The notes beneath the pieces are model-generated. The model was not told the origin of the DNA and searched no databases. It was given only the letters and a program-made list of their open reading frames with translations. Made by a program: the position numbers and the translations under genes. DNA of 64,000 nucleotides from positions 1,178,001 through 1,242,000 of the forward strand of contig OZ024940.1 of assembly GCA_964017235.1 (NCBI GenBank), in the 5' to 3' direction. The first letter of the stretch is position 1, and each line of letters begins with the position of its first letter. The DNA is from Sabellastarte sp. h YS-2021. Its lineage: Eukaryota; Annelida; Polychaeta; Sabellida; Sabellidae. Positions 12,720 through 64,000 of the stretch are shown here, in pieces.

Positions 12720-13445
12720 TTATCTCATGTTTTTGCATATTTTAATGCCTCTGTGATCAAGCTGCCATGTTTTAGTTCCGATTCTTGTATCATCCGGTGG
12801 ATACTTTGGTTTAGCGTTCTCTACGCCACCACAGCGCGTACAGATTTTTGGCGTTAACACTCTAAGAGGAGAACTCTCTACGAGGAAAACTACACCAAAT
12901 TTGCAGGATATCTCCATTGCGGAGTAAGCTTCTCTGGGAAGGAAATTGGCCGCATTCTGAAAATACAAGATGGCCGCCGCTTGCATTTCTCTGAAAGTTA
13001 TCTACATTTTTCTACTGGCTGTTTCTCATAGGTAGAAGGTTGAATCTCTTCATAGGTGATATGTATAACAGATATATATGTCCTCTACAACCTTGCAGAT
13101 ATTTGACCTTCTGATGTGGTCAGATTTGACCTTGGGGCCCCTCCTTCACGGTCAAACGAGGATAGCCAAACTTAAAAGTGCTTATATTTCACTCATTATT
13201 GGTCCTAGAGGTTTGGGATGGTAAACCAACTTATAGGAAATCATGGGCTGGGAATCTTTTGATGTGGTCAGATTTGACCTTGGACCCTTCCTTCAATGTC
13301 AAACGAGGATAGCCAAAATTAAAAGGGTTTACAACTCGTTTATTATTGATCCTAGAGGTTTGCAATGTGAAACCAACTTGCAGGATATTGTGGGCTGGGA
13401 ATCTTCTGATGTCAGATTTGACCTTTGACCCCTCCTTCAAGGTCA
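12720..13445 (-). mobile_element. 147-bp-monomer element, inverted copy (pearl-like)
   Basis: In reverse orientation it carries the same tail module as the arrays at 18-22 kb ('tttctcataggtagaaggtt', 'cttctctgggaaggaaattg', 'gttaacactctaagagg') joined to two to three monomers ('gtcagatttgaccttggggc', 'gtcctagaggtttgggatgg'). So array plus tail is a mobile unit, not a local satellite. Confidence 0.7.
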
Positions 13446-14800
13446 AACGATGGTTCACTAGCTTTGGTGAGTTGTCTTTCCGGTGGATACAGATTTGTAT
13501 CGGTTCTCCGATGCATAGGTCTAGTTTTATTTCCGGTAAACAGTATTCCATTGGGGAACTACTAAAACGTATCTTTTTTTTTGGAATCCCAGAATCGCAA
13601 AAGTGCTGGCTGTTGAAACCCGCAAAAGATGGACTCTGCAACGGTTGAGATTAGGGGTTGGGGATTTATTAATAAATTAATAGGGAGGCGCAGTGTTACG
13701 GTGGATATCAGAAATACTGTCCCGAAATTGTACAAAACGACACACTCAGTACAAGATTCTAGTGAAAGTGACTCTTTTAAAGCTCCTGCGAGCAGATTGT
13801 GTTTAAAAAGCGAAATAAATGCTTCTAGAGCTTACATTGTTTGAGCCAAATTATAAAAAAAAAAGTTTCCCCCCTCCCCCCTCCTCCCTCCTGCCTAAAA
13901 TTGAGGCGGGCTTGTAATTAATGACCTTTCAAATTGCTGCCCAATTAAACTCCCTGTATGAAGGGCCCGGAGTGACACCACAGATCCATAACAGTCCCGA
14001 GCAGGTAGATTGATTGATCGGCCGTCAGGCTGGTACAAGGCAACTGCCCGCCTCCCCACCCCTATACCTCCCACCTCAGAGTATCATACAAAAACCTGAC
14101 AGCAAAGGGGCAAGAAATAACCTGTGACTAAAACGGGGAGGGGAGTCTGGGACGTGGGTTTTTTTATGGGGTGGTCGGGGACTGGGAATGGCAGTCCAGG
14201 AATTAAAAGGGATTGTAGTTGCCGAAGGTAGCAGATAGCCGGAGGTTTAAATAGTGCAGAATCTTCACTAGTATACGCTGGGGGTCGTTCAGTTGGTAAC
14301 GCCCCTACGTCGGCGGAGTCTGTCATCTCTGAAAATCCCTTGACGACACAGTACAAGTGACTTCTTGATTGTCGCCATGCAGGATTGTTCGGGAAAATTT
14401 CAAAATCTTAGAACAGCTGAGACCACCACCCCCCCCCCACCCCCACCCCGAGAACTGCCATGAGGTGTTTTTCTATGAGCTCGCCATCACCCTAAATCGG
14501 CGAGGCCAATTTGACGTGGGACTGAGCAAGAACACGAATGTTTTTCGATAGGATAGTTTTACCCAGACAAGAAGACGCTTAAAATGGGAAATAGGTTACC
14601 CGCCCTGCATAGCCATATGCTTGAACTTTCCACCAACATGTCTTAAGGCTGGCCATCACTGCTTAAACTGGCTTCTCCGAGACTATCTGCCTTAGCCACC
14701 TCAAACCCCTTGTTTCTTCTCTGGTATAGCCTTGCAAAACGTGTATAGACTCAAACTCTTTGTACCATATCTTCATGCATAGTTGCACCTTGGACAGTCT
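13446..14800. other. Spacer, no gene supported
   Basis: Mixed sequence with C/T-rich runs (13868-13893, 14430-14448). Short ORFs are not supported by splice sites or homology. Confidence 0.45.
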
Positions 14801-17997: not shown

Positions 17998-18197
17998 NNN
18001 NNNNNNNNNNNNNNNNNNNNNNNNNNNNNNNNNNNNNNNNNNNNNNNNNNNNNNNNNNNNNNNNNNNNNNNNNNNNNNNNNNNNNNNNNNNNNNNNNNNN
18101 NNNNNNNNNNNNNNNNNNNNNNNNNNNNNNNNNNNNNNNNNNNNNNNNNNNNNNNNNNNNNNNNNNNNNNNNNNNNNNNNNNNNNNNNNNNNNNNNN
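17998..18197. other. Assembly gap, 200 N
   Basis: Exactly 200 undetermined bases, a typical fixed scaffolding size, so true length is unknown. The sequence resumes inside a tandem array. Confidence 0.99.
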
Positions 18198-19690
18198 ACC
18201 ATCCCAAACCTGTAGGACCAATAATGAGCGAGTTATAAGCACTTTTAACTTTGGCTATCCTCGTTTGACCTCGAAGGAGAGGCCCAAGGTCAAATCCATC
18301 TACACCAGAAGATTCCCAGCCCATGATTTCCAAAATGTCGGTTTACCATCTTAAACCTCTAGGACCAATAATAAGTGAGTTACAAGCACTCTAAACTTTG
18401 GCTATCCTCATGTGACCTTGAAGGAAGAGCCCAAGGTCAAATCTGACCACACAAGAAGATTGCCATCCCATGATTTCCTATATGTTGGTTTACCATCCCA
18501 AATCTCTACGACCAATAATAAGTGAGTTATAAGCAGTACTATGTTTGGCTGTCCCAATTTGAGCTTGAAGGAGGGGCCCAAGGTCAAGTTTGACTACACC
18601 AGAAGATTCCTAGCCCATGATGTCCTATATGTTGGTTTACCATCCCAAATGTCTAGGACCAACCATAAGTTAGTTATAAGGGCTTTTAAAATTGGTTAAC
18701 CTCGTTTGGCCTTGAAGGAGGGACCGAAAGTCAAATCCCACCACACCAGAATATTCCCAGCCCATGATTTCCTATATGTTGGTTTACCATCCCAAACCTC
18801 TGGGACCAATAATAAGAGAGTTATAAGCACTTTTAAGTTTGGCTATCCTTGTTTGACCCTGAACGAGGGGTCTAAGGTCAAATCCGACTGCACCAAAAGA
18901 TTCCCTGCCCATGATTTCCTATATGTTTGTTTACCATCCCAAATCTCTAGAACCAATAATAAGTGAGTTATAAGCAGCTTTAACTTTGGCTATTTTCATT
19001 TGACCTTGAAGGAGGGGCCCAAGGTCTAATCTGATCACACCAGAAGATTCCCAGCCCATAATAAGTGAGTTATAGCCACTTTTAAGTTTGGCTATCCTCG
19101 TTTAACCTTGAACAAGGGGCCCAAGATTAAATCTGAAAACACAAAAAGATTCCCAGCCCATGAGTTTCTATATGTTGGTTTACCATCCCAAACCTCTAGG
19201 AGCAATAAAGAGTGAGTTATAAGCAGTTTTAACTTTGGCTATCCTCATTTGACCTTGAACGAGGGGTCCAAGGTGAAATCCGACCACACCAGAAGAGTCC
19301 CAGCCCATGATTTCCTTTATGTTGGTTAACCATCCCTAATCTCTAGAACCAATAATAAGTGAGTTATAAGCAGTTCTAAGTTTGGCTGTCCTCATTTGAC
19401 CTTGAAGTAGGGGCCCAAGGTCAAATTTGACCACACCAAGAGATTCCTAGCCCATGATTTCCTATATGTTGGTTTACCATCCCAAACCTCTAGGATCGAT
19501 AATAAGCGAGTTATCAGCACTTTCAAGTTTCCCTATCCTCGATTGACCTTGAAGGAGGGGTCCCAGGTCAAATCTGACAACATTAGAAGATTCGCAGCAC
19601 ATGATTTCCTGTAGGTTGGTTTCACATTGCAAATCTCTAGGACCAATAATAAGGGAGATATAGGCACTTTTGAAGTCCGCTATGTTGGTT
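18198..19690 (+). repeat. Tandem array A of about 147-bp monomers
   Basis: About ten monomers. Start-to-start distances measured at 'tggtttaccatcccaaa' are 147 bp (18486, 18633, 18780). Each monomer holds 'tttgaccttgaaggaggggc' and 'ccaaggtcaaatctgacc', so an inverted pair of AGGTCA-type half-sites. ORFs in it are repeat artefacts. Confidence 0.92.
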
Positions 19691-20080
19691 ACTCGGCTCT
19701 CCGTGGATGACCTTGAAATAAGAGCTTCAAGGTCAAATGTGTGTGAGGTTGTAGAGGATATGTATATATGTTATACATGTCACCTATGAAGAGATTCAAC
19801 CTTCCACCTATGAGAAACAGACAGTAGAAAAATGTAGATTATTTTCAAAGAAATGCCCGTGGTGGCCATCTTGTTTGTCAGAATGAGGCTAATTTCCTTC
19901 CCAGAGAAGCTTACCCCAATGAAGATATTCTGCAAATTTGGTGAACCTAGCTGCTGTCATTTTCCTCTGAGAGCGTTAACGCCGAAAATCTCTCTACGAA
20001 TGGCGGCGGCATAACAAAGGCTAGCCCAAAGTCAAATCCGACCACACCAGAAGATTCCCAGCCAATGATTTCCTACATGT
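19691..20080 (+). mobile_element. Tail module of array A
   Basis: Non-tandem segment with 'cacctatgaagagattcaac', 'tgagaaacagacagtagaaa', 'cttcccagagaagcttaccc' and 'gagagcgttaacgccgaaaa'. The same module follows array B and, inverted, the 12.7-kb copy. Confidence 0.75.
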
Positions 20081-21715
20081 TTGTTTACCATCTCAAATGT
20101 GTAGAACAATAATAAGAGAGATATAAGTGCTTTTAAATTTGGATATCCTAGTTTGACCTTGAACGAGGGGCCCAAGGTTAATTCTGAAAACAAAAGGATT
20201 CCCAGCCCATGAGTTTCTATATGTTGGTTTACCATCCCAAACCTGTAGGACCAATAATGAGCGAGTTATAAGCACTTTTAACTTTGGCTATCCTCGTTTG
20301 ACCTCGAAGGAGAGGCCCAAGGTCAAATCCATCTACACCAGAAGATTCCCAGCCCATGATTTCCAAAATGTCGGTTTACCATCTTAAACCTCTAGGACCA
20401 ATAATAAGTGAGTTACAAGCACTCTAAACTTTGGCTATCCTCATGTGACCTTGAAGGAAGAGCCCAAGGTCAAATCTGACCACACAAGAAGATTGCCATC
20501 CCATGATTTCCTATATGTTGGTTTACCATCCCAAATCTCTACGACCAATAATAAGTGAGTTATAAGCAGTACTATGTTTGGCTGTCCCAATTTGAGCTTG
20601 AAGGAGGGGCCCAAGGTCAAGTTTGACTACACCAGAAGATTCCTAGCCCATGATGTCCTATATGTTGGTTTACCATCCCAAATGTCTAGGACCAACCATA
20701 AGTTAGTTATAAGGGCTTTTAAAATTGGTTAACCTCGTTTGGCCTTGAAGGAGGGACCGAAAGTCAAATCCCACCACACCAGAATATTCCCAGCCCATGA
20801 TTTCCTATATGTTGGTTTACCATCCCAAACCTCTGGGACCAATAATAAGAGAGTTATAAGCACTTTTAAGTTTGGCTATCCTTGTTTGACCCTGAACGAG
20901 GGGTCTAAGGTCAAATCCGACTGCACCAAAAGATTCCCTGCCCATGATTTCCTATATGTTTGTTTACCATCCCAAATCTCTAGAACCAATAATAAGTGAG
21001 TTATAAGCAGCTTTAACTTTGGCTATTTTCATTTGACCTTGAAGGAGGGGCCCAAGGTCTAATCTGATCACACCAGAAGATTCCCAGCCCATAATAAGTG
21101 AGTTATAGCCACTTTTAAGTTTGGCTATCCTCGTTTAACCTTGAACAAGGGGCCCAAGGTTAAATCTGAAAACACAAAAAGATTCCCAGCCCATGAGTTT
21201 CTATATGTTGGTTTACCATCCCAAACCTCTAGGAGCAATAAAGAGTGAGTTATAAGCAGCTTTAACTTTGGCTATCCTCATTTGACCTTGAACGAGGGGT
21301 CCAAGGTGAAATCCGACCACACCAGAAGAGTACCAGCCCATGATTTCCTTTATGTTGGTTAACCATCCCAAATCTCTAGAACCAATAATAAGTGAGTTAT
21401 AGGCAGTTCTAAGTTTGGCTGTCCTCATTTGACCTTGAAGGAGGGGCTCAAGGTCAAATTTGACCACACCAAGAGATTCCTAGCCCATGATTTCCTATAT
21501 GTTGGTTTACTATCCCAAACCTCTAGGATCCATAATAAGTGAGTTATCATCACTTTCAAGTTTCCCTATCCTCGTTTGACCTTGAAGGAGGGGTCCAAGG
21601 TCAAATCTGACAACATTAGAAGATTTGCAGCATATGATTTCCTGTAGGTTGGGTTCACATTGCAAATCTCTAGGACCAATAATAAGGGAGATATAGGCAC
21701 TTTTAAAGTCCGCTG
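20081..21715 (+). repeat. Tandem array B of about 147-bp monomers
   Basis: From 20231 on it repeats array A with an offset of 2033 bp. I see no difference over roughly the first 0.9 kb; substitutions appear afterwards and become frequent in the tail. Confidence 0.9.
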
Positions 21716-27960: not shown

Positions 27961-28142
27961 CTAGTGCGATGCTGCATTCCTGTTCTCTAGTTTCACAGGT
28001 ACATTTGCAGCCATCACCAACTGGCCAGTTTCCAGAAGAGTCTTCTTGAAGAGGTAAAGGTTCTTGTATGTAGTCCTATAGATAACTTTCTCCATCAGTT
28101 GGTCTGGAGCTGTAATAACATCCTCCATCAGTTGGTCTGCAG
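27961..28142 (-). CDS. LRR-ROC-COR-FN3-CARD gene, exon 7 (second half of CARD, stop)
   Basis: The terminal coding exon is 182 bp including TAG at 27961-27963 and encodes residues 988-1047. It starts after GTTTACAG. Translation: AADQLMEDVITAPDQLMEKV, then IYRTTYKNLYLFKKTLLETG and QLVMAANVPV, ending in NRNAASH. YKNLYLFKKTLLETGQ is CARD helix 5 with the characteristic 'LxETGQ', and DQLMEKV is helix 4. DQLME occurs twice because 33 bp are tandemly duplicated, and the second copy carries its own TTACAG acceptor at 28110-28115 (exon start 28109). Using that downstream acceptor removes 11 residues in frame and gives the normal helix 3-4 spacing for a CARD. Which acceptor is used cannot be told from DNA. 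Confidence 0.8.
28077..28142 (-). repeat. 33-bp tandem duplication covering a splice acceptor
   Basis: Two adjacent 33-bp units (28110-28142 and 28077-28109) begin on the minus strand with CTGCAGACCAACTGATGGAG and CTCCAGACCAACTGATGGAG. Each is preceded by TTACAG, so the duplication provides tandem AG acceptors 33 bp apart. The units encode 11 residues each and keep the frame. Confidence 0.85.
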
Positions 28143-28894
28143 CTGTAAACAATGATAAATCTTCATAAAACATCTTTAAGTCTTCAGAAAGTATAAGACC
28201 TCTGTGTCAGGAGTTAAGGCTGACAGTTTAATGTCTAAAATTGTATTAGAGTAGTACAGTGTCATATTTAAAAATACATGCAAGATAGCACCATATACTT
28301 AAGATGAATATCCATTGCATTAAATTACCCATTAGTACAATTAAATATAATGAGTAATTCTTGTTTAATTTTGCTCCTTTACTATCCACCATGAGCAGTA
28401 TATAGAGGGGCACATACAGAAATAATTCTCTTTTTTGTATTTAATGGTGTGATTTACTATGCATAATAGCATTAAAAATTCTTTGATGAGTGCTGATTTT
28501 TCATTAATATTTATGAGACTATGTAATAGATATGTTCTATATACACCACTAGAAAGGTATATTACAGAGCTTCTGCCAGTTTTGATACATTAAAATCCAT
28601 ACAGAAATTGACTCTCAAGTTAAGAATTGAGGTTTCTATATTCACTTCTGCCCCTATATATTATAGCTCTTTTTGCCTGCTTTCTTGAAGTATGGATTTA
28701 GTTTACTTATTTATCACACAGAATGGTTGATAATAAAATGAAACATCCTCCAAAACTATTGATCACCCATGAAGAAGAAAAATATAATAGTCGTGTCAGA
28801 CATTCCTATAATACTGTCATCTTCATTTGTGATGCGTATTTGTGTATGTTATATGGGAAGCTTTCCTATTTTATCCATAAGATTTTCTCTGTAC

Positions 28895-29056
28895 CTTCTA
28901 TGTTTGTTTTTTGCAATAGTTGTTCTTTCTGTGTCTTTGAAATGACACCTCGACTAACAAGTCGTAGTAGCACTTCTCTAATATTGGTCATCCTGCTGAA
29001 GAACAAGTGATTGGCAACCATTGCATCCCTGTCAGAGTCGTCTAGCATTTCATCAG
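28895..29056 (-). CDS. LRR-ROC-COR-FN3-CARD gene, exon 6 (first half of CARD)
   Basis: A 162-bp phase 1-1 exon encodes residues 934-987. The acceptor is AATTTTCAG and the donor is GAAG|GTACAG. The translation has a short acidic lead (ADEMLDDSD), then RDAMVANHLFFSRM, NIREVLLRLVSRGVIS and KTQKEQLLQKT, matching helices 1-3 of a caspase recruitment domain, including the helix 2-3 turn 'RGVIS'. CARDs bind other CARDs to nucleate signalling assemblies. If the donor is not used, the frame runs into a TAG at 28866-28868, giving a protein with half a CARD; that would be a non-signalling form. A DEATH or DED assignment fits less well because of the RGVIS turn and the spacing. Confidence 0.87.
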
Positions 29057-29292
29057 CTGAAAATTGATTTTTAAGATTGATAGAATACTGGATAATAGTT
29101 ATACGGATCACCTCTTTTCAAGGCCACTAATCTTGATATTTAATACAAGTATTATATAATGTCTTATAATATGCTGGTATTATTGAATGTAATTGAACTT
29201 TTATGCACCAACTGCGTGTCAGTAATTTCTTTAAAAGTAGAATAAATTGAAAGAATTAAATAATTGTTTAATAATCTGAATATTTAACGTAC

Positions 29293-29379
29293 CCTTTACT
29301 ACATGGACAGGGATGACATGGGAGAATTCCCCAGGTCCGTTCTTATTAACTGCAGCTACCTTGAACTCTTCAGCCTTAC
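29293..29379 (-). CDS. LRR-ROC-COR-FN3-CARD gene, exon 5 (C-terminal part of FN3)
   Basis: An 87-bp phase 1-1 exon encodes residues 905-933. The acceptor is TTTATTAG and the donor is AAAGG|GTACGT. The translation AEEFKVAAVNKNGPGEFS is the signature F-G region of fibronectin type III domains (aromatic-x-V-x-A-x-N-x-x-G-x-G-x-x-S), then VIPVHVV forms the last strand. Together with exon 4 it makes one complete FN3 of about 90 residues, split by an intron in the usual central position. The match to the FN3 consensus is strong evidence that this small exon is real and in the chosen frame. Confidence 0.88.
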
Positions 29380-29694
29380 CTAATAAAAACCAAAGATTTT
29401 GATAAAATGTTGCAAATAAGCCATAAAGCAAATAATTTAAGAAAACTATAGCAAATACATGCAATTTAAAATTTAAAATAATATGATGCTCATAAAAATG
29501 TTTTTGTTTGTGACTGAGAATGATATAATGCAGTAGTTGATGTACAGTAATTTTGTAGGTACCACACTTCTTCCCCACCTATTATCCCCTGGGTTTGTTT
29601 TCCCAGCAGACCTGAAGCAGACAAATGTATATCTCTTTGCCTCAGTCATTTTCTTTGCAAAATAAAATCTTGAGCAAACTGTATCCTTCCTGTA

Positions 29695-29935
29695 TCTAGT
29701 AGACTAAGCAGTGTAGTGGTTGACACTGCTGCTTTCCACCTTTGAGGTTGTGGCCTCAAATCTTGCAAGTAACTTCTAGTCAACAATTTGGTTTTCTCTT
29801 CATGATAGATCGCAATTTCCAATGCAGAATCTTAGTTTGCTAGTATGCACTAGTTTCTTCTGCCCTTAACAACACCTCTTATGATAGGACTTGTATAATA
29901 TGCTGAACCCAAGCAAACATACTAAATCCTCCATT
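29695..29935 (+). repeat. Decayed family-A SINE in intron 4
   Basis: A head-like run (cagtgtagtggttgacactg, then ttccacctttgaggttgtgg) is followed by traces of the body: tatgcactagtttcttctgc, then cttatgataggacttgtata and gctgaac. It is in the layout of the family-A SINE but heavily diverged, so an old insertion. Confidence 0.55.
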
Positions 29936-30066
29936 TCCTCAATGGCCCACAGTGACAAAAATGTAGCTAATGCTTGAAGTTATGTTTAACTTGAATGGGT
30001 CATAAGTCTTATTTTCATAAGTGTATTCTAATGAGAACTTTTTAAATTTTGAAGCAATTTACACAC

Positions 30067-30264
30067 ATTTGACCATGTAAGGCGAGGTCTGGATGATATC
30101 AGAGAGTCTAGTCCAGTGTTCCCCAACTCTGTACTCCACCACTGCATGGGTGAAGAGAGGACCAATCTCTTCATTACAAGCAGGCCAACCCCAAGAGAGA
30201 CAAAATTGATTTTCCCCCTCTTCCTCACAGTCCAGGTAGAGTAACTTGCCAGGCAAGGATGTTT
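30067..30264 (-). CDS. LRR-ROC-COR-FN3-CARD gene, exon 4 (N-terminal part of FN3)
   Basis: A 198-bp phase 1-1 exon encodes residues 839-904. The acceptor is TTTAACAG. The donor is CAAAT|GTGTGT: weak at the last exon base, but it is the only choice that keeps the frame into exon 5. The translation carries the first strands of a fibronectin type III domain: FCLSWGWP (the conserved tryptophan strand), THAVVEYRVGEHWTRLSDII (strands C and C') and SPYMVK leading into the conserved F strand, which is in exon 5. FN3 domains are protein-interaction modules and are more common outside cells, so one in a cytosolic ROCO protein is noteworthy. An alternative donor two bases downstream would shift the frame. 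Confidence 0.86.
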
Positions 30265-30924
30265 CTGTTAAATAAAATAACAAAATTTGCCAGGGATTAC
30301 AATGTGTTTGTTGAAATACATTGCTTACTCAACTGGAGACTTTTTAATATTATTATTAAGAATCAATATATTTTGTAGACATTTTAGGTAACATCCAGAA
30401 CATAGAATAGTGTTTGTGACTTAAAATGACACATTATAAACAATGTTCTCTCACTGATTTGTCACATGACGATGTTAATTTACTTCATTACCTTTACTGG
30501 CCAACATCAGTAAAGAAAAACATTTAAAAAGGTAATCTGTTCAATGGTTAGAATTATAAATCAGTTTTAACCTTGTAACATGGGTTTTTAGGACCTCTGG
30601 GGTAAGGTTTTGCACTGTTATATGGTTTGTCACAATTCCATGCATGCCACAATTTGACCTTGAATGGCACTGTTTCATGCTATTACATGGGATGTCACAT
30701 TACCTCCAGTCTCACAATATTCTTTATGTGTCAATATGTCTGTACAGAAATTTATATACAACAGTTAATTGGCATGAATGTGTTATATGCTATAAGATTT
30801 GGACATATTTTAGCACACTGTATTGTGGTCTATTTTCTTTCAACTTGAAAAGGCATTTCTCATGATTAGTTTCTTGATATGCAGTGTTGTAACAATGTGT
30901 GAAACTGGCTTTTAAACTTTATAC

Positions 30925-30990
30925 CTTGGAATGTTTTCTTGAGATATTCTTGCACATTTGCGACATGTTCTTTAATCTTCCTGCTTCCAG
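30925..30990 (-). CDS. LRR-ROC-COR-FN3-CARD gene, exon 3 (helical linker)
   Basis: A 66-bp phase 1-1 exon encodes residues 817-838. It is bounded by GATTGCAG on its 5' side and CAAG|GTATAA on its 3' side. The split codon G|CT reads alanine, and the translation is AGSRKIKEHVANVQEYLKKT followed by FQ. It is rich in Lys, Glu and Leu, so an amphipathic or coiled helix between COR and FN3 is likely. Its length is a multiple of three and both junctions share the same phase, so skipping it would not break the frame; it could be a cassette exon. No domain is recognised in it. Support comes from splice sites and phase only, which is why confidence is lower than for its neighbours. Confidence 0.75.
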
Positions 30991-31264
30991 CTGCAATCAA
31001 GGAAATACATTAAGTAAACAGATTCAGATTACAGGACATCTTTGAAACATTATGAAAAGGTAACAACCAATTAAAGTGCTTAATTTAAGAACAAACAAAT
31101 CTCTTTTTAAAGTGCAGAATAAATTTAACAAGAAACATAAAAAAGAACTGGGAATATAAGGCTTAGAATTTATTAAAGCATGGTTTAATTTTTCTGGCAG
31201 ACCAGTGTTTACTTTTAGTTATGTTAGTTAGTTTTTTAGTTATGAATATCAATTACTGACTCAC

Positions 31265-32898
31265 CAGATGGTGCAATCACCAAAGCTCTTGGAATTTTAT
31301 CACCCTTGCAGCGCTCATATGTCACATCTGGCTCTTCAGTTTTGAGAACATCCCTGGGGTGTCGTTTGTGAACAGGCTGTAGATGCTTAACAATGCAGTG
31401 GGTGCATTCGAAAAACATCAGCTTAATGACACCCAACAGTGGCTGTATGACTGCCTCAAGGTCTGAATAGACATTGGCTGTCACTTCCCACACTTGTTCT
31501 ACATCATGGCTCGGAGCACAAACACATATTGCAATGGTTGACTCAGAAGCTCTTCTTATTGCTCTGATTTCCAAGGTTCCTATAATTACCTGGATTCCAT
31601 CCTGCCAGGCGTAACGCAAGTTCCCATATTTCCGTTCAACAGCAGTTTTCTGAAGTTGAACCTGCATTGCTTCAAAAGCGTTTATGGGAACTGCATTGTG
31701 GAACACACAATTAAATACAACTGAGAAATACTGTTCTTGTATAGAGTGTAGTTTCTGCAAATCAAGTGAAGCTGGTGGTTCGTGGCTTTTCAGGAAAAAC
31801 GGAAAAAAGAAGAGTTTCTCAGTGCTATCAACTGGATAACAAATATGAAATTTCTTCATTATTTCCAGTACTGCTCTTTCCTCCTCTTCTTTAAGCCCAT
31901 ATTTTCGCCACAGAAATTGCAGGAGTTCAATGGCCAACAGACCTTCCTCATCATACTGCTGTAGCATCAGATGAACAGAGACTTTAGTGGTTTGACGAAG
32001 GTCCCTAAAGTCAGTGGCATTCTTGAGATTGTGATGGAAGACAGATTGTGTCATTTGTAGAAGGAAGTCTTTGTTGTGAAAGACATAATCTTCTAAGACA
32101 GGATTGTCTGGGAAGTACAGCACATGCCCCGCAGCACGGTAATATTCCAAAGCTGACCTAAACTTCTTCATGATTTTAGCCTGCTGAAATAACTGTGTGC
32201 CCTTGAAATATAGTTGCTTGAAAAGTTGCTGCAACTCAGCTAATTTGAAAAAGTTTTTCTTCTGGTTTAACATGAGTTTGTAGAACTGGACCCATTTCTC
32301 TGGCAGAGAAACCCGCTTTTGTTCTGTCAATTTTGTAAGGAATTCCTTGAGATTGTCTATGCCCTCAAATGTCTTGCTGGACAGAAGAAACACCACCATG
32401 TTGTCCCTCTGCTTCTGCAGTTGGGCTGCCAGCTGATTTCTAGCCTCATCTTCCTCCATGGGATGTGCGAGACTCTGTATTTCTTGATTAATACATGCAT
32501 TAATCTTGTCCTTTATAAAGTCCCCATTCTTCTGTGCTTCATCTCTACTAACAACATCTGTGTGGGTGAGCACCAGGTGAACTTGATTTCCAGGGTGATA
32601 TGCGAATGCATGGCGTAAAATGGCTGCTGTATCATCAACCCTGTCTTCACTAACTTGACTGATGTCATGAACAAGTGCTACAGTGCCATTGGGAACTATG
32701 AATATGGGACTTGTTATCCTATATATGTCGTGGCCCCCATGATCAAATAGCTGAATGGAATCTTCTGGAGTAATCTCCCAGGTTTTGATGTCTGCAACTT
32801 GCGTGCGATCATCAATGTGAACCAGAACAGCTTTCCCCTCCATTAGCGATTTCATTAGACTAGACTTTCCTGCAGTTGTTGGTCCCAGCAACATCAGG
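31265..32898 (-). CDS. LRR-ROC-COR-FN3-CARD gene, exon 2 (ROC GTPase and COR)
   Basis: A single 1634-bp exon encodes residues 272-816. It starts right after a TTTTCAG acceptor and ends at a strong GTGAGT donor. The ROC GTPase comes first: P-loop LLGPTTAGKSSL (about 275-286), G3-like LFDHGGHD (about 322-329), G4-like LTHTD (382-386) and SSK as the G5 candidate (about 445-447). The COR dimerisation module follows (about 480-760), with the typical LPEKW, AGHVLYF and HNKDFLLQM elements. The end holds a Cys/His cluster (FECTHC, then YERCKGDKIP) as in other metazoan ROCO tails. ROC-COR proteins bind GTP and couple nucleotide state to dimerisation. The G3 motif reads DHGG rather than the usual DxAG, so hydrolysis may be altered. 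The ATG at 33185 extends the open frame into the upstream intron but is probably not used. Confidence 0.95.
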
Positions 32899-34038
32899 CT
32901 GAAAACCAGACGGGAAAAGATGAATGCAAATATACCTAGTAACAAAAGTATTTCTCTAGTACTTTCCAAATGATATATAAACAATGACAGCAACATAACA
33001 TTTGAATCCCAAAAATTGTTCACAGGCACAAGATTTAGAAGATGCCTTTCCTGGAGGTCCAAATTTGGAATATAAAAGCCAGGAACCAGCCAGAGGGTTT
33101 TCATTGTTACGTGAGATGTTGTTAGAAGTACACTTGCCTCTGCAAGTCTGAATAGGATGCAATATTCTTGATGAAATTTTCTCATTTAAGTGGCTATTTT
33201 TGTCACATAATCAGAATCAGGAATAAGTTGATGTCTGTTTTATACAATTACCAGTCCAAACCTAAAAACCACAATTAACAAGCTAAAAATGTCAACGCCA
33301 ACTTGCCCTTGGCCTAATTTTATCACTATTTTCATTGACATCAACACTTGATCCCCTTTTCACAGAAATGGCTGATGAGGTTTAACTGAGACAAAAAAAA
33401 ATTGCCATGTGATGGGATCCAAATAATTTGTTGACTGACCTTGACCTGATTTTATTGAAAGAAATGTTAGCAATGAATGGAGAGGAAAATCAGCCATAAT
33501 ACTTGTCCTTGGTCAACACAAATATAGAAATGTTTAAGTTGTGATTTCTCTGCCATTTTTGCATGGATTTCAATGCAGGAAGCACGAGCAGAAAGTCGTA
33601 TAAAATGCCTTTCTAACGATACATATTACATGTCTGTAACTTACACAATTAGCGAGAAATTAGCAAAGAATGGAGATAATATATCATCTGTGAAACATAT
33701 CCAAGGGCACCAGAAAACATAAAAAACTTCAGTGTTTAACTTGTGATTTCTCTGCCAAGTCTGCATGGATTTTAAAACACCAAATTCAAGCAGAAAATGT
33801 GTAAAAGGACCTTTTTAATGGTGTATGCGACATATTTGTAACCCACAGAGTTTATGAAATATTACCAGAAAAGCTCAGCACATGTTTTTCAGATTTCGCA
33901 GTTTATTCAGATGAAGTACAGCATGTGGTGGATGACAAAAATCCTACACATTCACACAGAGACTTCTTTCTTGTGTCAGTTTTGGAAAGAGTGCTGTGTA
34001 AAAAATATTAGAAAAAAGTAAAGCAGAGAAAACGTTAC
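32899..34038 (-). other. Intron 1 of the ROCO gene
   Basis: A 1140-bp intron with GTAACG donor and TTTTCAG acceptor. The part next to exon 2 (32899-33185) happens to be open in the exon 2 frame and starts with an ATG, but its translation is AT-driven and hydrophobic, so I treat it as intron. No repeat family is recognised in the rest. Confidence 0.85.
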
Positions 34039-34853
34039 CTTGAGTGTGTGGTCCTGATGGGTTTCTCTTTGTAATACTCTAGCACAGCCTCAAGTCCTTG
34101 CAACAACACTTCTACCGGTGGCTGTTCTAGCTCCCATTTTATTTTCTTACACTTTTTCTTCAGTATGCCGTAGGTGTTCTCGTGGAAACACTTTTCTTCC
34201 AGGACCCTCACACTCGAATTGATGTCGAAGTGGAAGCTTCTATTCGGGAGCGACTGAATCCAGTGGAGAGTGCTGTTGTTGTCCAAGTCTAGCCGCTCCA
34301 GTCGTATACAGTGGAACAGATCGACTGCCGTGAGTTGATTATTGTAAAGGTCGAGCCGTGTCAACGCAGGTGGCAGGTTCCTCCAGTCGATCTGATTGAT
34401 GCGATTGCTGCCCACAGACAATACACTCAGTTGTGTAAGATGGCTGCAATTGCCCACGGTTCTGAGTTGATTCTTGCCCAGGTCGAGCCGTTTCAGTGCA
34501 GGTGGAAGGTTCCTCCAGTGTACATGTGTGATCTGATTGTACGATACATCCAAGTACTTGAGTTCTGTACAACAGCTCAGATCCCGAATACCATTCAGTT
34601 CATTAAAACTAAGGTTAAGCTTTGTCACTGTGGGCGGGATCAAACTGAAATCAATGTGTGTGACATTGTTATGCCACAGATTTAACACTTTCAGGCCATC
34701 AAACTGCCTGAATTTCCTCAAGTCTGGCAGAGATGTTAGGTTGTTGTAGGATAAATCTAGCTCTTCATATTGTATGTCATTTTTTACATTATGCAGCTTT
34801 TTGAGAAGATCAGAGTCTTTTAGATCCTTTTTACTCAAGTCAAGTTTAGACAT
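34039..34853 (-). CDS. LRR-ROC-COR-FN3-CARD gene, exon 1 (leucine-rich repeats)
   Basis: This is the first coding exon of a seven-exon ROCO-type gene and encodes residues 1-271 plus two bases of codon 272. The ATG at 34853 has an A at -3 (AAACATG) and opens a frame with no upstream competitor. After a short charged start, about eight leucine-rich repeats follow (roughly residues 30-210), visible as LxxLxLxxNxL units such as LDLSYNNLTSLP, LNLSFNELNGI, LDLGKNQLRTV and LDLYNNQLTAV. A helical stretch ending KEKPIRTTHS leads into the GTPase domain. The exon ends at a CAAG|GTAACG donor. Joining to exon 2 turns the split codon into serine and keeps the frame; reading past the donor meets TAA at once. 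LRRs in ROCO proteins normally act in ligand or partner recognition. The ligand is unknown. Protein is predicted cytosolic: no signal peptide or membrane segment is seen. Confidence 0.95.
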
Positions 34854-60812: not shown

Positions 60813-61415
60813 TTCCTCTAGATAGGTACACTGACTAGGAAATCTAACACCGTGTACATGCAAGTATCAAGTGACTTCACAGTGGGAAGGCATTTATAAA
60901 CCAATGCACACACACAAAAGAGAAAAAAAAAACAACAGAAATATATTGTCACTTCTATTGATATCAACCCATTCTGAGACATTACAGGTACTCTATTGAG
61001 GCAGACATCTTGCGCATGAATATATAGGCTACCTTTTAGAGTCTTAACTACGCGTATGTGTCAAAAATAGACTTGGTGACAATGGTCTGAAGGAATCAAT
61101 TGGAAAGTTTTAAAAAAAATGAAATTAGTTTGTGTAATACTTCAAGACGAAATTATGTACAATGAAAATTATTGACCATTGCTTGAATGTTATTACTAAA
61201 AAGCCAATAAAAAAAACAACGTTCGTGCTAAAATTGACAGGAATTTTCATGAACTTCACATAAAAAGGTACGTAAATGTACGTAAATATATTGTTTTGAC
61301 AGATATATTCAATGGGAAGTAGATCGGACGATAATATTTTATTCATAAAAAAAATCTCAAATAAAATGGTTACGCGACCAGTGTTACGATAACTAGTTAT
61401 TTCCATCCTAAACAG

Positions 61416-61646
61416 GGGGCCACGGTGGCAGAGTGGTAACACTCTCGCCTCCCACCTCTGCGACCGGGGTTCGATCCCCGTCATGGCCGTAAGTGGGAAA
61501 GCTGGTAGTCGCTTGCCGTTGGTCGGCAGTTTACAGTACAGAACCCTAGCGAACTATATCTACTGGTTTCCTCTGCCCTTCCAACTACCCGTTGTGATAT
61601 GACCTGTACAGTGTTGAAAGCGACGTAAAACCCCAAATAAACAAAC
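61416..61646 (+). repeat. SINE, family A, with near-perfect target duplication
   Basis: Flanked by ccatcctaaacag (61402-61414) and ccattctaaacag (61647-61659), one mismatch in 13. Full-length. Confidence 0.88.
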
Positions 61647-62895: not shown

Positions 62896-63379
62896 GACAT
62901 AGTGAAAGTGTCTGTGCAGCAGCCAGCATTCAACTTTTAGCTGAACACTTCTTAGGCCCTTATCATATGGCAACGAGCAAGCTCGTAAAAAAAAATTCTC
63001 ACAAAATCCCAACAGACAGCACGTTCCACCTCGTCCAAGCCTAATTACACCAATGAAATACAAGAACGAAATGAGTTCAGTGTTTAAACCTTGGCCATTT
63101 AATCTCAAAGTGCCATGCCACAGGACATAACCACCTCAGTTTCGAACCCCAACCACCCCCCCCCCCCCCCCAAAAAAAAAAAAAAAAAAAAAAACTAGTT
63201 ACACAGTCCATTTTTCAAACCTTTCCCTATTATTCTAAGACAAAGTGTTAGGTCACCAGGCCTAAGCTCCTTAGTGTTCTCGAGGGTTCAAACCTGGTCA
63301 TCCTTCTCTCATCCAAGGCCCAAACCAGGTTCAAGTTCAGTGGGGAGGGGTTCAAACTCTGCCATGTCTCTGTCATTCA
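62896..63379. other. Spacer with C-run/A-run junction
   Basis: A C run of about 17 directly joins an A run of more than 20 at about 63155-63195. No gene supported. Confidence 0.6.
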
Positions 63380-63611
63380 TTTATTTATTTGGGGTTTTAT
63401 GTTGCTTTCAACACTGTACAGGTCATATCACGACGGGTAGTTGGAAGGGCAGAGGAAACCAGTACATAGAGTTCGCTAGGGTTCTGTACTGTAAACTGCC
63501 GACCAACGGCAAGCAACTACCAGCTTTCCCACATAAGGCCTTGACGGGGATCGAACCCCGGCCTCAGAGGTGGGAGGCGAGAGTGTTACCACTCTGTCAC
63601 CGTGGCCCCTC
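63380..63611 (-). repeat. SINE, family A, with 13-bp target duplication
   Basis: Flanked by tctctgtcattca at 63367-63379 and 63612-63624. Full-length reverse copy. Confidence 0.9.
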
Positions 63612-64000
63612 TCTCTGTCATTCAAAATCCTAACCAGTTTCAGGTTCAGTGGTGGCGAGATCAAAAGTCATTCAATGAACATATATATTTATTCCTCTAG
63701 TAAAAAGATATCTTCAAGCAACGTTCATTAAAATATTATCAAAGAGAAATACACAGTAGTGCAAAGAAACATCTGAACTATTTCAGAGGGTAGACAAGGC
63801 CGATTTTATTCAATGCAGAAACTGTACAAGTACAACAAAAAAAATAAAGCATTTGCACCTGTGTTCATACGGGTAACACATATTTGAAACTTCTATGAAT
63901 TAAAACATCACTGAAACACCTTAAACATGCTATGTACTTTTAGACAAAAAAAAAACACTGTTGATATATTTAAATTGTCCTTTTCACTAGTGTCTACATG

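Follow-up and report, generated by a model that had tools for sequence, protein, structure and literature searches.

A ROCO gene of Sabellastarte sp. with an LRR-ROC-COR-FN3-CARD order belongs to a large diversified family of candidate intracellular receptors

Most work on ROCO GTPases has centred on LRRK2 and Parkinson's disease. In the NLRs, NLRP1/CARD8 and PIDD a sensor is combined with a switch or processing module and a death-fold output, the output domain being C-terminal in NLRP1, CARD8 and PIDD. Civiero et al. 2014 (PMC4104024) describe at least 17 ROCO genes in Trichoplax adhaerens, in which ROC-COR is accompanied by CARD, death, LRR and TPR domains. Brown algae carry 9-47 ROCO genes per species, with LRRs under diversifying selection, and the products are proposed as immune receptors; the same source gives up to forty ROCO domain combinations for animals, and LRR-ROC-COR-FN3-CARD may be one of them (PMC11378527). 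In sea anemones (PMC5094078) and Aplysia (PMC9334734), TIR or death domains have been reported on ROCO proteins. Here we describe a gene in a 64-kb stretch of the Sabellastarte sp. h YS-2021 genome (C21:1178001-1242000, referred to as the window) whose predicted product has LRR, ROC, COR, FN3 and CARD domains in that order, and its relatives in the genome searched (1.79 Gb, 647 contigs). The gene is one of a large diversified ROCO family in this genome, for which we favour, at a probability of roughly 55%, a role as ligand-gated, GTP-switched receptors whose CARD tails recruit partners, caspases first.

The gene occupies the minus strand from 34853 to 27961, its seven exons (Table 1) joining into 1047 residues with no internal stops, and all six introns are bounded by GT-AG with phases 2,1,1,1,1,1. 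The coordinates, strand, exon number, phases, GPTTAGKS motif and length proposed in an earlier sequence-only reading were all reproduced. In the full-length protein, Pfam detects LRR_8, Roc at 29.2 bits (cut-off 27) and COR-A at 36.3 bits (cut-off 35.3), whereas fn3 and CARD, the other two domains named in that reading, were matched below cut-off and in isolated segments only. Neither a protein kinase nor ankyrin is among the Pfam matches of the 1047-residue protein, and NACHT is absent from those up to E 10. The highest 19-residue hydropathy is 1.47, indicating, by hydropathy only, no strongly hydrophobic stretch, and the receptor is probably cytosolic. ROC matches the LRRK2 ROC at 1.1e-6 and has the motifs G1 GPTTAGKS, G3 DHGGH and G4 THTD; G1 and G4 are intact in 16/16 ROC-COR exons examined and G3 in 15/16 by the pattern used. 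Exon 2 aligns with two bacterial ROCO proteins, reaching into the COR-B region; the predicted structure of ROC-COR, built with these two bacterial relatives only, was poor (predicted local distance difference test [pLDDT] 52, predicted template modelling score [pTM] 0.41) and was not used. The model of the LRR exon places eight predicted strands where the motif predicts them (mean pLDDT ~79 over residues 1-190, low in the tail), and a fold search with it returned many LRR proteins, SDS22 being the top match (1.2e-5), a fold that does not indicate a ligand.

Searching the genome with the ROC-COR exon returned at least 88 matches at no fewer than 79 merged loci, a lower bound because 80 of 195 candidates were scored. 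All 88 matches were used for locus counts, together with 59 of 125 FN3 matches (exon-4 matches, E up to about 0.02), 73 of 150 CARD matches (those extending into exon 7, with E no higher than about 0.05) and 77 of at least 181 LRR matches, and 10-kb stretches around 20 Roc matches were read. At three loci 71-73% identical in ROC-COR (L018, L019 and L026), exons 3 to 7 are present in unchanged order, and FN3 and CARD exons are also present at the more distant L014, L020 and L024 (33-35%). FN3 and CARD follow downstream on the same strand at 38/42 loci with at least 55% identity in ROC-COR and at all six with 43-46%. An LRR exon lies within 15 kb upstream at 40/42, 5/6 and, among the most distant loci, 24/31, and 33 of the 42 close loci combine all four exon kinds with a ROC-COR exon free of stops. 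Of the CARD and FN3 matches used, only 4/73 and 2/59, respectively, lack a ROC-COR match in the 20 kb upstream. A tree of 25 rows places the window gene in a group of 16 ROCO rows (99/97), and six further ROCO rows form a second lineage apart from it. Thirteen of these 16 are followed downstream by a CARD match; none was found at L022 or L027 and only one, 15 kb away, at L025. The second lineage (L011, L016, L017, L021, L023 and L028) consists of single-exon ROC-COR genes, ~22% identical, with no FN3 or CARD match in the 10 kb read around each.

The loci are clustered, the close family forming 12 clusters at a 2-Mb gap. Considering 73 of the 79 loci (six were left out), on 13 contigs, and distance limits that were set after viewing the data, 65/73 are no more than 11 Mb from a contig end, a zone that represents 17.4% of the length of those contigs, and 38/73 are no more than 5 Mb away, representing 7.9%. 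FN3-CARD cassettes are repeated two to three times behind one ROC-COR exon at L018, L019, C18:2130804, C14:5187962 and C18:5699529, FN3 and CARD matches alternating three and three at the three C18 loci and occurring two each at the two others. The cassettes may join one transcript because the first exon 7 of L018 meets a donor-like GT (CTG/GTGAGT, the slash marking the junction) ahead of its stop. In the C14 paralogs L032 (1183-1515) and L033 (1210-1542), exon 7 runs past the window's stop position, and the added tail looks like the last part of the LRR exon (LEQPPVEV...IRTT), as though a copy of that linker had been placed behind CARD.

The identity of the tail was decided by the paralogs. 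As an isolated segment, the window's own FN3 region gives fn3 as the sole Pfam match (E 0.2, 12.3 bits, cut-off 25), and the CARD region gives CARD as the better of two (E 0.055, 13.9 bits, cut-off 23.9). Eight shuffled segments, four per domain and too few for statistics, gave no fn3 or CARD match, yet unrelated families were matched down to E 0.023, so that the window's tail sequence is in itself only suggestive; single-sequence Pfam was not decisive for either domain. A search of the PDB with exons 6 and 7 returned cIAP1 CARD as the sole matches, at E 0.2 and 1.9. With a four-row FN3 profile, the single-domain titin chain 8bw6 was matched at 1.4e-4 and a multi-FN3 titin chain at 4.2e-11, the latter summed over domains; 11/12 matches with E up to 1 were titin, myomesin, NCAM2 or contactin, the other being 2mqb. 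A CARD profile of seven rows, all ROCO, found five PDB matches, namely cIAP1 CARD (6e-4 and 0.003), residues 4-87 of CED-3 (0.018) and two designed proteins, one on an Apaf-1 CARD template. Enlarged by two paralogs and two non-ROCO relatives from the same genome, the profile returned 22 matches, 18 of which were CED-3, cIAP1, caspase-9/caspase or Apaf-1, with three designs and one unrelated protein (4fqg) making up the remainder.

A nine-row ROCO-CARD hidden Markov model (HMM) scored L064, a CARD of the same genome that passes Pfam (36.1 bits), at 30.4 bits. Downstream of the ROCO paralog at C3:120901534, the same HMM gave 36.6 and 17.0 bits for two frames; the weaker passes Pfam CARD (26.8 bits), the stronger does not (19.0). 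On strand and position, both frames appear to belong to the gene of this paralog, for which no FN3 was found on the coding strand. Between the window gene and its 88% C11 paralog (one pair, with 18 differences in FN3 and 26 in CARD), the ratio of nonsynonymous to synonymous substitution rates (dN/dS) is 0.19 in ROC-COR, 0.12 in FN3 and 0.21 in CARD. Exon order in the paralogs, the profile matches and low dN/dS combined lead us to accept the FN3 and CARD assignments and confirm the domain order LRR-ROC-COR-FN3-CARD. On sequence comparison, we regard CARD as established across the family and extend the assignment to the window gene by homology.

A CARD query also reached a caspase of the same genome (L035, Peptidase_C14 5e-42, N-terminal domain at C5:70973605), whose N-terminus is 21% identical to the ROCO CARD in the alignment. 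This N-terminus scored 21.9 bits with the ROCO-CARD HMM, whereas 2000 shuffled versions of it reached 13.2 at most, and in the reverse search it recovered a ROCO CARD exon (C3:111944492) with E 5.6e-5. As judged from these scores, the N-terminal domain of the caspase is related to the ROCO CARD. Three CARD-like places of one kind (C5:140824266, 140877535 [L034] and 140917050), outside ROCO genes, are relatives of the ROCO CARD as well as of the caspase N-terminus. A somewhat unlikely alternative retains the architecture and directs CARD away from caspases, either recruiting an adaptor or IAP-type protein in an NF-kappaB-like manner or, with the protein as a negative regulator, titrating CARDs. 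Consistent with this account are cIAP1 CARD as the best PDB match to the ROCO-only profile and at least 57 other Pfam CARD places in the genome, which make many partners possible. Against it, the sole partner-type gene identified among the CARD relatives is a caspase, a weak argument as only L034 and L035 were read of the non-ROCO relatives.

Variation in the sensor part is concentrated on one set of positions. Across 21 LRR exons, the exposed strand positions have a mean entropy of 1.63 bits, the framework 0.29 and the remaining positions 0.81; the p value of 1.7e-8 is only nominal because the rows are related, near-identical copies being included. Pooled over the non-redundant set of 14 exons, dN/dS is 1.24 at five pre-set exposed offsets, as against 0.22 for the framework and 0.47 for the remaining positions, and 1.29 (bootstrap 0.93-1.87) at the four most variable exposed offsets, which were picked after the entropies had been seen. 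In 6/6 gene pairs dN/dS of the LRR exon exceeds that of ROC-COR (0.25-0.62 vs 0.17-0.27). Such variability at exposed positions is what one would expect if the LRRs form a variable binding face; it does not prove positive selection. It could instead reflect relaxed constraint after duplication in genes with a housekeeping or stress role and no immune recognition. The bootstrap range and the late choice of the four offsets are compatible with this explanation, as are near-identical pairs, in which exposed sites show no excess, and brown algal ROCO genes, which respond to non-immune stress as well (PMC11378527). We regard it as unlikely, as framework and other LRR positions are constrained whereas exposed positions are not, and ROC-COR, FN3 and CARD remain constrained.

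Several observations weigh against the interpretation of the family as receptors with CARD output. Pfam names CARD in only 4/7 aligned paralog members (best 5.9e-4) and in 0/3 further close paralogs, two of which match a ParB-type helix-turn-helix instead. The N-terminus of L035 is likewise not named CARD by Pfam, and the forward genome-wide E from ROCO CARD to L035 is 1.87. Both FN3 and CARD were detected at only 3/31 loci about 30-42% identical in ROC-COR, for which the window's short exons are poor probes. COR-B and dimerisation depend on a thin alignment and the poor ROC-COR model. In the LRRs, the exposed-site bootstrap range includes 1, and 15 near-identical pairs have a lower proportion of nonsynonymous differences (pN) at exposed sites, 0.001 vs 0.011. 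That exons 3-7 form a separate gene, or that the window holds a pseudogene, is very improbable and was rejected on paralog conservation and dN/dS: ROC-COR stops in 7/42 close loci indicate that some copies are decaying, but the window gene has no stops and consistent phases, exon order is kept in nearly all close loci, FN3 and CARD matches rarely stand apart from ROC-COR, and dN/dS is low in both domains.

Table 1. Exons of the ROCO gene and the tandem duplication at its last acceptor (window positions)
Feature	Position	Strand	Content	Basis
Exon 1	34039..34853	-	start codon, eight LRR strands (residues ~29-196), linker to ROC	LRR_8 1.1e-21
Exon 2	31265..32898	-	ROC (Pfam residues 273-386), COR-A residues 471-638, then COR-B-like region	Pfam
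Exon 3	30925..30990	-	22-residue linker	68-77% identity in L018, L019, L026; 86% in C11 paralog
Exon 4	30067..30264	-	FN3 first part	paralog exons and FN3 profile vs solved FN3 domains
Exon 5	29293..29379	-	FN3 second part	paralog exons; isolated-segment fn3 E 0.2
Exon 6	28895..29056	-	CARD first half	paralog exons and CARD profile
Exon 7	27961..28142	-	CARD second half and stop codon	paralog exons; stop position shared with 88% C11 paralog
33-bp tandem duplication	28082-28148	-	in frame; carries exon-7 acceptor and first codons	tandem repeat

Two splice sites of the model deserve comment. The exon 4 donor (T/GTGTGT) is weak, the equivalent site being T/GTAAGT in L026 and T/GTATGT in L018. Exon 7 has two possible in-frame acceptors because of the 33-bp tandem duplication, a start at 28142 giving 1047 residues and one at 28109 giving 1036. 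The shorter form matches the length of single-unit paralogs; the unit is present twice in the window gene, three times in the C11 paralog and once in L032 and L033. It scores no better than the longer form (CARD 13.4 vs 13.9 bits; PDB E 0.79 vs 0.2), so that paralog length alone would speak for it. The duplication is a possible source of alternative CARD lengths. Elsewhere in the window, long tandem arrays of a 147-bp unit lie at 13108-13450 and 18198-21706, with a 200-base gap (17998-18197) adjoining. Frames 61125-61553 and 63199-63633, on opposite strands, have in common a peptide like TGIEPRxQRWEARVLPLCHRGP, which is probably a dispersed repeat. Nine other frames of the window (93-149 residues) matched no Pfam family over cut-off, and an Rfam scan of the window gave no match. 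One marker search, with an APGWamide-like query, gave only weak matches and was uninformative as to a mollusc; the best of them (E 0.0027, 43%) is a simple repeat.

By analogy with the known roles of LRR, ROC-COR and CARD, from which we infer switching, dimerisation and partner recruitment, the LRR face would bind a ligand, most likely microbial or damage-derived, and binding would shift the GTP/GDP and dimer state of ROC-COR. This shift would expose or cluster the FN3-CARD tails, and clustered CARDs would recruit CARD-bearing partners, caspases foremost, and trigger cell death or inflammatory signalling; a gene with two or three FN3-CARD cassettes would have a higher CARD valency. In overall logic the protein would resemble an NLR whose NACHT had been exchanged for a ROCO switch, as the sequence-only reading had proposed, a proposal that gains support from the variable exposed LRR positions, the intact G1 and G4 motifs and the relationship of CARD to the caspase N-terminus. 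We suggest, tentatively and with somewhat less confidence than in the favoured receptor role, that the worm may possess a second NLR-like intracellular receptor system made up of dozens of LRR-ROC-COR-(FN3-CARD)1-3 genes that lie for the most part near chromosome ends and combine diversified LRR ligand faces, a ROCO switch replacing NACHT and CARD tails of adjustable valency seeding CARD-caspase complexes. If so, ROCO GTPases would act natively as ligand-gated nucleators of death-fold complexes and ROC-COR would be a third switch, besides NACHT and NB-ARC, in expanded intracellular receptor repertoires. Natural variation in sensor face and in CARD number within the family could then be used to study the coupling of the ROC-COR switch to its output.

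Compared with described systems, the family resembles that of Trichoplax in that one animal has multiple ROCO genes including CARD; it differs in that Trichoplax has fewer genes, and neither FN3 nor the word 'fibronectin' occurs in the text of that paper (PMC4104024). A CARD on a ROCO protein is therefore not new, as ROCO-CARD is already reported in Trichoplax, and the unfamiliarity claimed for the arrangement in the sequence-only reading applies to the FN3-CARD tail, which, like the size of the family, was not found described in the open-access literature searched. Among the matches listed from the open-access literature (ROCO with CARD, death domains, COR, expansions), none was an LRR-ROC-COR-FN3-CARD protein or an animal ROCO-CARD expansion. 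Brown algal LRR-ROCO proteins are bare LRR-ROC-COR without CARD and owe their diversity to splicing and to exons that each encode one LRR (PMC11378527); in the family described here a single exon holds the LRRs, and the differences are between gene copies. ROCO proteins of Aplysia and sea anemones are likewise fused to immune signalling domains, but to TIR or Death and not FN3-CARD (PMC9334734, PMC5094078). MFHAS1, LRRK1/2 and DAPK1 share the ROC-COR core, MFHAS1 and LRRK share the LRR, and DAPK1 has a C-terminal death domain; the window protein lacks a kinase or ankyrin of the LRRK/DAPK1 type and has an FN3-CARD tail that is absent from all of them (PMC6337361). It thus does not match the MFHAS1 type, LRR-ROC-COR with no signalling tail. 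In comparison with NLRs, the window protein has no NACHT and is predicted to use a ROC-type GTPase as its switch, in the order LRR-switch-CARD.

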